A stretch of DNA of 64,000 bases from Desulfobulbaceae bacterium BRH_c16a (GTDB taxonomy: Bacteria > Desulfobacterota > Desulfobulbia > Desulfobulbales > Desulfocapsaceae), in NCBI GenBank assembly GCA_000961725.1, contig LADS01000039.1, positions 1 through 64,000 on the forward strand. The letters run 5' to 3'. This document shows, in pieces, positions 2,982 through 55,709 of this stretch. The notes beneath the pieces are model-generated. The model searched no databases, was not told where the DNA came from, and worked only from the letters and a program-made list of their open reading frames with translations. Position 1 is the stretch's first letter, and each line of letters starts with the position of its first letter. The translations under genes and the position numbers were made by a program.

Positions 2982-3083
2982 TGTCTTGCAGCGAAGACTT
3001 CCTTGAGCGAAAAACAGCTGGCGGAATCTTACTGGCGTCAGGAACAGTTCTGTCTGGGGAAAGGAATCCGACTTGCAATTATT

Positions 3084-3152
3084 AGTACCTTAGAAATTCA
3101 TTTCTTGTTTTTCAGGAATGAATTTCGTGAAGGTACTCATACCCCTTGAAGG
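3084..3152 (+). repeat. Palindromic intergenic element, copy 1
   Basis: The outer arms are AGTACCTT (3084-3091) and AAGGTACT (3130-3137). Inside is a perfect 10-base stem, GAAATTCATT (3093-3102) with AATGAATTTC (3117-3126). A C-rich block CATACCCC follows, with a small CCTTGAAGG palindrome after it. Three further copies occur at 19.1, 36.1 and 55.5 kb. It lies between the DUF4143 fragment and the acyl-CoA dehydrogenase gene. The family is not one I recognise. Confidence 0.8.
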
Positions 3153-3214
3153 ATGTAATCAGGAAACACCTTCGCCAGCGGGAAGTCGTCATGGCACCTC
3201 CGGATACCTGCAAC

Positions 3215-18978: not shown

Positions 18979-19109
18979 CTTCTTCCTCTTCTCCATATGC
19001 TCTCTCCGGGTCCTTCAAGGCCCGAAGGACAGCCGTTTTTCATATGACAAACAATCATGATCACGTTACTATGTCTAAAGTGGGCTAGAGCCCGCAACCG
19101 AAGGGTTAT

Positions 19110-19190
19110 GATCCCCTCCCACAACAGAGGGGATAAGTACCTTCACGAAATTCATTTCTAAAAAGCAAGAAATTGAATTTCTAAGGTACT
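19110..19190 (-). repeat. Palindromic intergenic element, copy 2
   Basis: Minus orientation relative to copy 1. The arms are AGTACCTT (19136-19143) and AAGGTACT (19183-19190), with an inner GAAATTC/GAATTTC stem. The flanking hairpin ATCCCCTC/GAGGGGAT spans 19111-19134. Two further small hairpins, GGGCT-AG-AGCCC (19082-19093) and AACC-GAAG-GGTT (19096-19107), precede it. It lies between prmA and letA, 50 bases before the letA start. Confidence 0.8.
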
Positions 19191-19240
19191 AAAAAGTCGT
19201 TCGTTTCCCTGTTCCCTGTCCTGCCGCCGAGGGTGGTTTC

Positions 19241-35996: not shown

Positions 35997-36010
35997 GCAA
36001 CAGACTTACA

Positions 36011-36044
36011 GGCCGGGCAGAATTTTCTGCCCGGCCTTTTTTTT
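36011..36044 (+). terminator. Strong intrinsic terminator after dppA
   Basis: GGCCGGGCAGAA (36011-36022) pairs perfectly with TTCTGCCCGGCC (36025-36036), followed by eight T residues. It sits 14 bases after the dppA stop and probably stops most transcripts, leaving read-through for dppBCDF. The last T adjoins repeat copy 3. Confidence 0.9.
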
Positions 36045-36128
36045 AGTACCTTAGAAATTTTTGTTTTTCACCCCTTGAGGGGGTGCTGAAAAGAATAATT
36101 TCGTGAAGGTACTTATCCCCTTCAGGGG
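36045..36128 (+). repeat. Palindromic intergenic element, copy 3
   Basis: AGTACCTT (36045-36052) and AAGGTACT (36106-36113) form the outer arms, with inner GAAATT/AATTTC. The loop contains its own hairpin, TTTTCA-CCCC to GGGG-TGCTGAAAA. A flanking CCCCT-TC-AGGGG hairpin lies at 36117-36128. The element starts directly after the dppA terminator and ends 29 bases before dppB, so it is transcribed as part of the dpp mRNA if there is read-through. Confidence 0.8.
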
Positions 36129-36157
36129 AGTGAGCGTTCATTTTGTGAGACCCATAC

Positions 36158-54411: not shown

Positions 54412-55479
54412 TCACGTGGGTTCGTTCAGCAGGTGGCGGGTGGCTACAGGGTCCTGGCCATAAAGGTGAATGCTTTCTTTCAGTCCGTAACCTTTGATCA
54501 TTTTGATCGCCTTGGGGAGAAAACGATATTTAGGAAATTTCGCTTTGGTATCGAGATCGGCCTGAATCCATTCCCGGGGGAGATCGGGAATTCGCTTGAT
54601 CACAACATCCGGTACGAGGAAGTATACCAAACCGCCGACAATGGCCTCCTCCACCGCCAGCCACTCCTCCACTACATCCTGGATTTCCTGCAAAGATGGG
54701 AATTCCTTCCGGGCGATTACCGCAGCTAAGATCGCTTTTTCGGTATATCCTCGCAGGGCGATGTGCAAGGTTTCCTCAAGCGGAGTCATGAGCACGGTAT
54801 ACGGGTTGGCTGAAACGCTTTTCCATACTGTTTGCCGGTTTCGAAGAAATTGCCAGTTGCCGTTTTTCTCCGAATACTGGAGATGGCTCGAGTAAGAACC
54901 CACTTCATTTATAGGCTGTCGCCCGGAGAAACCAATCTCGATCCTCTTTTCCGATGCACCGCTGAAACGATAACGAGCGACATATTCCCGCGCAAGATCC
55001 TGAACGATTACCGCCTTAATTCCCAGTTCCTCCGTATCGTTCCCAATATTGTCTCTCAAAATGGAAATAGAGCTGTAGGGATTGACCAAACCGGTGCGGT
55101 CCAAAAGATCTTCAATGGTTTCATGGCAGTATTCGGTAAACAATCCTGCAACTTCCTTTCGGCTTTCCGGGACGTAGAGGAGCCTGTAGGAAAGCTCTTC
55201 AAGTTGCCATTGAATTTCCTTGCTGCCCAGATCGTCCCGGATCCGATCCAGCAAATCCGGACGCGAAGTGAGATATTCAAGGCTGGCGTTGTGGTCTGCA
55301 TCGTCTTGATTGCCCGCTTCAAAATCACTCAAAGCGATAAAATCCGTTGAACGTTCGGAAGCATCAAGCGAGGTGAGAAGACTCCGGTATTTGAATTTTG
55401 AAAGATCTTCCGGGAGATTCGTCGATTGTGCTCCCGGTGGAATGAAAAGGAAGAAGATAACGGACAACCGAACTAACAC
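54412..55479 (-). CDS. Secreted protein of unknown function
   Basis: 355 residues if started at GTG 55479 (VLVRLSVIFF), or TTG 55467. Either gives a clean signal peptide ending near GAQS. The open frame continues upstream to 55635, but that part runs through a palindromic repeat and reads unlike protein. The mature part is helix-rich and contains TPLEETLHIALRGYTEKAIL and then EEWLAVEEAIVGGLVYF; the Glu/His pattern could be a metal site, but no known protease signature is complete. It lies downstream of a two-component system on the same strand, separated by the repeat. I do not recognise a family. Confidence 0.55.
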   Translation of the reverse strand: MLVRLSVIFFLFIPPGAQSTNLPEDLSKFKYRSLLTSLDASERSTDFIALSDFEAGNQDDADHNASLEYLTSRPDLLDRIRDDLGSKEIQWQLEELSYRLLYVPESRKEVAGLFTEYCHETIEDLLDRTGLVNPYSSISILRDNIGNDTEELGIKAVIVQDLAREYVARYRFSGASEKRIEIGFSGRQPINEVGSYSSHLQYSEKNGNWQFLRNRQTVWKSVSANPYTVLMTPLEETLHIALRGYTEKAILAAVIARKEFPSLQEIQDVVEEWLAVEEAIVGGLVYFLVPDVVIKRIPDLPREWIQADLDTKAKFPKYRFLPKAIKMIKGYGLKESIHLYGQDPVATRHLLNEPT

Positions 55480-55555
55480 CCCACAAGGGGGTATAAGTAC
55501 CTTTAGACAGATTATTTTCTTGTTTTTTATGAACGAAAATAATCTGTAAGGTACT
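55478..55555 (-). repeat. Palindromic intergenic element, copy 4
   Basis: Minus orientation. The outer arms are AGTACCTT (55496-55503) and AAGGTACT (55548-55555). The inner stem ACAGATTATTTTC (55507-55519) and GAAAATAATCTGT (55535-55547) pairs perfectly over 13 bases but differs in sequence from the other copies. The flanking hairpin ACCCC/GGGGT lies at 55478-55492 and touches the likely GTG start of the secreted-protein gene. A further CCCCC-T-GGGGG palindrome occurs at 55613-55623. Confidence 0.8.
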
Positions 55556-55709
55556 AATAATTTAAGTCTCTCACAACACAGCATCTTGTTTACAATAACT
55601 GGAATTTTATATCCCCCTGGGGGAATGTGATTCAATTTTTAAAACCAGTCATTATATCGGCTCAAGGAGGAAAAACTGAAGAAAGAAGTTCAGTCATATG
55701 AAAAAAAAT

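Follow-up and report, generated by a model that had tools for sequence, protein, structure and literature searches.

Four copies of a short structured repeat in the 64,000-nucleotide stretch of DNA analysed here (the window) belong to a dispersed genomic family, which is probably a family of non-autonomous mobile elements that inserts at (W)TTAG and is moved in trans by a hairpin-reading transposase. A common origin and mobility of the four copies had already been proposed in the initial annotation of the window, and both agree with the presence of 99 copies in the genome, with identical 117-bp units elsewhere, and with the same stop codon being hit in more than one lineage.

Each unit is about 75-120 bp long and consists, in order, of TTAG, hairpin 1, TAT, one to three C/G-rich hairpins, and TTAG. 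Hairpin 1 usually has the outer stem AGTACCTT/AAGGTACT, a variable inner stem, often a 3-base bulge, and a T-rich loop. The inner stem was AGAAATTC..GAATTTC with the bulge GTG in type A, and ACAGATTG..CAATCTGT with the bulge CTC or CTA in type C; the bulge was absent in some copies. The right part took three forms, namely a simple hairpin (CCCCCTTGTGGGGTGTTAG), a variant to which a module resembling CTCAAGGGGGTACTGAAAAGAGT is added, and a long form terminating in GCGGGCGTTAGCCCGCTTTAG. The added module can also be inserted into the hairpin 1 loop, as seen in the copy at 36043. Of its 25 occurrences in the 2.42 Mb of this genome that were searched, 23 lay near an element copy, and the other two appear to be pieces of the element. 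Shorter variants, for example TTAGTACCCCCTTGTGGGGTGTTA, also occur, and this one may have arisen by deletion between two TACC words. A different loop insert, GAAGTCTTCGCTTATCTG, was observed at seven loci in other genera (L063, L067, L079, L081, L097, L104, and L109) as a lineage-specific module. The window contained the following features:

3082 to 3159, plus strand: copy 1, whole unit, with a type A stem and a decayed right hairpin (hairpin 1 at 3084-3137)
19075 to 19192, minus strand: copy 2, complete from TTAG to TTAG and belonging to the long four-hairpin subfamily (hairpin 1 at 19136-19190)
36010 to 36037, plus strand: terminator-like stem of a solute-binding-protein gene, neighbouring copy 3 and outside the element
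36043 to 36133, plus strand: copy 3, whole unit (hairpin 1 at 36045-36113)
36069 to 36085, plus strand: additional C/G-rich hairpin carried by copy 3 within its hairpin 1 loop
55473 to 55557, minus strand: copy 4, whole unit, with a type C stem and a simple right hairpin ending in GTGTTAG (hairpin 1 at 55496-55555)

The four copies lie at the positions and in the orientations first reported, and their shared arms were confirmed, as AGTACCTT and AAGGTACT each occurred four times in the window and all eight words were arms of the four copies. No arm pair was present in 100 first-order Markov versions of the window, and a chance origin was rejected on this basis. The boundaries had to be moved: each unit begins two bases earlier than annotated, at TTAG, and extends to a distal TTAG-like end, which for the copy at 19.1 kb lies at 19075 (118 bases, four hairpins). 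This copy is a diverged member of a subfamily that has three identical 117-bp copies. The C-rich/G-rich hairpin reported after the second arm in all four copies is decayed in the 3-kb copy. All copies had been called intergenic, which is a matter of judgement for copy 4, overlapping as it does an open reading frame at 54412-55635 (a mechanical call of 407 aa with a TTG start). The 36-kb copy is located directly 3' of the 12-pair terminator, whose T-tract runs into the TTAG of the copy so that the element begins within the T-tract; the two structures are distinct. When folded as single-stranded DNA, the four copies gave z-scores of -5.1, -6.3, -5.6, and -7.7, and none of 200 shuffles was as stable as the respective copy, whereas the minimal single-hairpin form did not stand out in stability (z -1.55, with 16 of 200 shuffles folding equally well). 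Elsewhere in the window, a gene at 948-2249 on the minus strand encodes a HipA-like kinase (Pfam HipA_C and Couple_hipA), possibly half of a toxin-antitoxin pair.

Pairing in the stems was assessed in alignments of 31 type A and 15 type C copies. Standard pairs occupied 94.9% of the pair cells in type A versus 91.1% after shuffling, and 93.3% versus 91.7% in type C. Cells that had changed on both sides numbered 28 versus 10.3 in type A and 9 versus 3.0 in type C, with none of the 500 shuffles as high in either type. A weaker measure, the number of pairs changed on both sides, gave 5 versus 3.4 for type A, a value reached in 37 of 500 shuffles, and 3 versus 1.4 for type C, reached in 48 of 500, and further pair types were matched by 166 of 500 (type A) and 70 of 500 (type C) shuffles. 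Slid controls matched or exceeded the structure on some measures (type A at +1, 6 pairs; type C at -2, 6 pairs and 10 cells). The outer stem was set by the search pattern in these alignments, and its invariance in the covariation counts is therefore ascertainment. Two single cases of a compensated outer stem were stronger, namely AGTGCC/GGCACT in the same genome and AGTAAGTT/AACTTACT in distant relatives (L391 and L392), in which TTAGTA and TACTTAT were retained. The paired changes would fit selection on the hairpin as well as template-switch correction of palindromes.

A scarcity of further copies in the genome, which the initial annotation had named as a result that would speak against its reading, did not occur. 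A covariance model built from 31 simple copies, searched against the whole 6.5-Mb genome, yielded 113 matches that merged into the 99 copies, including a tandem array of four at C11:36596. The two arms followed by a YATnCCC-type tail, as first described, had 44 exact genome matches versus none for the reversed-pattern control; the left word TTAGTACCTTA had 78 genome matches versus 3 in the control, and the right end CCCCTTGTGGGGTGTTAG, allowing two mismatches at most, had 81 versus 0. Three of the 99 copies showed no difference from another copy over the 280 bases compared, which included the flanks (two cases in C49/C71 and one in C46), and this probably reflects assembly redundancy. The assembly is a 72-contig draft with a contamination of 6% by the tool's figure, and stretches with identical element flanks recurred between C49 and C71, between C43 and C49, and within C46, suggesting redundant contigs.

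Direct evidence showed that the repeat has been dispersed recently as a defined unit, because the copies at C4:50904, C36:25092, and C64:30582 share one 117-bp sequence, bounded by TTAG at either end, in different surroundings, and on each side their identity stops no more than one base from TTAG. The words at the ends were counted in 91 of the 99 copies, leaving out the three duplicates and another five that scored under 35 bits. TTAG was the left word in 75 of 91, GTAG was absent among these left words, and T or A preceded the left word in 77 of 88. At the other end, 64 of the 91 copies were scored and TTAG was recorded in 30, a loose count in which right ends were harder to place and at least four (ACTG) were scored wrongly on an internal hairpin. 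When the left word departed from TTAG, the right word matched it in 0 of 8 copies or, in another count, 1 of 6. Within the tandem arrays L006, L056, and L083, each unit starts in the last TTAG of the preceding one, head-to-tail. For eleven of the 99 copies, the first base lies in the TTAG that contains the TAG stop codon of the gene before them, and six overlap a called gene, with gene contexts taken from simple open reading frame calls of at least 90 aa.

TTAG is well supported as the target word, and insertion at WTTAG was supported by comparison of the flgH stop codon, where the same protein end was retained and TTTTAG was found without an element. The flgH product of this genome has WPF as its last residues, and its TAG stop codon is where the element starts. 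A match was found in 55 of 79 genomes of the taxonomic family, and 30 loci, including the one in this genome, were cut and read as a between-species comparison of filled and empty sites. All 29 relatives aligned to residue 229 or 230 and retained the same protein end. The element was absent from L241 and L259, which read TTTTAG, and from L250 and L256, which read TTCTAG. A whole AGTGCC-type element of another subfamily occupied the same stop in L249 (genome G028, another genus), a degenerate element cut by the contig end was present in L251 (G087), and an apparent 3' remnant was observed in L248 (G011). G028 and G087 belong to the same genus, and therefore at least two separate insertions at the flgH stop are required. 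The other relatives had a different stop codon and spacer, and most contained nothing resembling the element.

Beyond this genome, the family was patchy in Desulfobulbales and recurred more distantly in the phylum. A pattern scan with one genome per species retrieved 70 stretches, mostly from Desulfobulbales (Desulfobulbus, Desulfocapsa, Desulforhopalus, Desulfopila, Desulfoprunum, and bins), while a Desulfurivibrionaceae bin contributed some and another six came from bins carrying the label Gammaproteobacteria. A Chloroflexi match was taken for contamination because its flank was shared with a Desulfobacterales bin (L073 and L077), and a Pseudocolwellia match (L058), which lacks a right hairpin and has TAAG as its left word, may be due to chance. 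Exact matches were detected in 10 of 57 relatives, and covariance-model matches under strict filters in 12 of 395 genomes of a phylum sample, this genome being included in both counts. The 117-bp query had no match in plasmid and phage collections, and the exact pattern had none in viral contigs; carriage on such replicons was rejected at the settings used. Among the literature matches listed, no publication was recognised as describing this repeat, which does not by itself show that it is unpublished.

Orientation was random with respect to genes, as the upstream gene was scored plus for 51 copies and minus for 48, and the downstream gene plus for 54 and minus for 45. The element was on the G-rich strand in 52 of 99 copies, and in 49 of 85 where the skew exceeded 0.02. 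Lagging-strand targeting, considered after a hand count of 18 of 25 on four contigs, failed over all 99 copies. This random orientation argues against a transcribed function and against an IS608-like lagging-strand bias.

The initial annotation had suggested looking for a RAYT (Y1) or other transposase with matching ends, and none turned up in the Y1 loci or in the end searches of this genome. Eight Y1 transposase matches were detected in the genome, and none of the eight loci (2.5-3.4 kb each) contained an arm word, although one had the shorter GTACCTT. The flanks of seven of the eight genes contained other repeats or none, and no element. Two Y1 genes had GGGGACAG-type ends and one a GTAGGGTGCATTCCATGCACC-type repeat; the former resemble inverted repeats described for subclass 2.1/TIRYT genes (PMC6006769). 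The IS200-like tnpA of this genome (L031) had different hairpins, the right one followed by TTGTTTAG, a weak echo of the element. In ten other carrier genomes, no Y1 gene was located near an element among the copies listed; the two were on different contigs, or 40 kb (G034 C47) and 15 kb (G251 C1) apart. Exact and near-exact end searches of this genome revealed no autonomous element with left and right ends enclosing a gene, searches that degenerate parents would escape. Two right ends in inverted orientation, separated by 2.65 kb in C43/C49, enclose a non-transposase gene, which we take from its sequence to encode a chemotaxis receptor, and a left-right pair 1.08 kb apart at C33 proved to be two separate short copies.

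Several observations concern the Y1 genes themselves. Just past the window, at G000:C28:65887-66177 (L034), lies a broken Y1 (RAYT-type) gene with stops, by eye a relative of the open Y1 gene at C39 (L032), and both adjoin GGGGACAG-type sequence. The palindromic repeat GTTCCCATGCGCTGCATGGGAAC, probably a true REP-type family, was found beside another Y1 gene of this genome (downstream in L033) and in the flgH-flgI spacer of a same-genus relative (L245). The Y1 gene at C48:48703 (L038) is flanked on each side by GTAGGGTGCATTCCATGCACC, a palindrome with a GTAG tag, and the two make up an ordinary REP-RAYT pair.

In the proposed mechanism, a transposase acting in trans would read the hairpins and move the unit, which would insert at (W)TTAG with the left TTAG supplied by the target; the right end repeats TTAG, so a second unit could join head to tail with one TTAG in common. 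An HUH/Y1 enzyme from the IS200/IS605-TnpA(REP) superfamily is the weakly favoured candidate for this activity because of the hairpins, the fixed left word, and the absence of inverted repeats, but the lack of strand bias and of linkage to a Y1 gene speak against it, and taken alone this guess is less likely than not. A broader reading is possible and rather doubtful, in which the family would represent a wide Desulfobacterota class of gene-less mobile elements with exchangeable hairpin modules, a novel enzyme would join TTAG to TTAG, and stop codons and terminator T-tracts would serve as harmless landing sites.

A YTAR word is known as the target duplication of IS5/IS427-type elements. TTAG could likewise be a 4-bp target duplication, in which case the family would be a MITE derived from a classical DDE insertion sequence and the hairpins would be incidental palindromes. 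The TTAG at both ends of the identical copies and the random strand, as double-stranded transposition would give, are consistent with this origin. It is nevertheless unlikely, as the two ends do not form inverted repeats (TACCTTA on the left, CACCCCA on the right when read inward), the left word is retained more often than the right (75/91 versus 30/64, right ends being harder to place), the right word does not follow a departing left word, to which later decay could also lead, and no full-length insertion sequence with such ends appeared in the end searches of this genome. A tyrosine, serine, or IS110-type site-specific recombinase might instead integrate a small circle at a TTAG core common to circle and target; the tandem junction ..TTAG-TACC.. 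has the expected look of a circle junction, and inverted repeats are absent and the strand is random, but known elements of these classes are far larger than this unit, and such an enzyme is improbable. That the repeats are immobile transcription terminators or untranslated RNA structures maintained by function is very hard to accept: nearly all copies are intergenic, fold strongly, and in some cases lie directly 3' of stop codons or a terminator, but their orientation is random, most flgH relatives have nothing similar, identical copies occur in unrelated surroundings, and Rfam gave no match in the window at the gathering score and only sub-threshold miRNA and sRNA models in three loci. A known Rfam family was thus rejected for the window at the curated score, and so, from the orientation and the separate terminator beside copy 3, was the possibility raised initially that the four sites were unrelated terminators.

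Under the preferred reading of a mobile family moved in trans, the exact unit ends, target word, and identical recent copies permit a concrete search for the mobilising enzyme. The family also illustrates how very small repeats can invade gene-dense operons when the stop codon itself serves as the target and the protein is left unaltered, and it provides a marker for environmentally important, mostly uncultured sulfur-cycle bacteria.

The label REP/MITE-type, given initially, holds as a resemblance only, as the GTAG/GTGG or CGTC tag at the hairpin foot, a Y1 gene flanked by the element among those read, and clear terminal inverted repeats of about 10 bp or more are absent and the units run head-to-tail. 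The family is REP-like in size and place, and lacks the features by which GTAG-REPs and TIR-bearing MITEs were tested. As described in PMC3733652, PMC6006769, and PMC8266576, REP, REPIN, and BIME sequences with TnpA(REP) (RAYT) are likewise small, intergenic, and high in copy number, with a conserved bulge in the hairpin, a conserved tetranucleotide beside it, and movement thought to occur in trans, whereas REPs have GTAG/CGTC and the present element has TTAG at both ends. The element further differs from REPs in its multi-hairpin units of 75-120 bp and in its arrays, the few read (L006, L056, and L083) being head-to-tail, while REP dimers are mainly head-to-head or tail-to-tail. Unlike GTAG-REPs, no RAYT gene flanked by the element was found, a feature that CGTC REPs do not need (PMC3733652). 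Similar to IS200/IS605 ends and their gene-less derivatives, the element is inserted 3' of a fixed short word in the left flank, has subterminal hairpins near both ends and a similar word at the right end, and lacks inverted repeats and a long duplication; unlike them, it shows no strand bias (52/99 on the G-rich strand), and its hairpin 1 starts inside TTAG. DDE MITEs are comparable in being gene-less, intergenic, and present in many copies with the same short word on both sides, but the element has no clear terminal inverted repeats and no parent was found in the end searches. BOX-type repeats of pneumococcus are built of modules, and although they differ from this element in sequence, ends, and phylum, both are modular structured intergenic repeats without a gene of their own.
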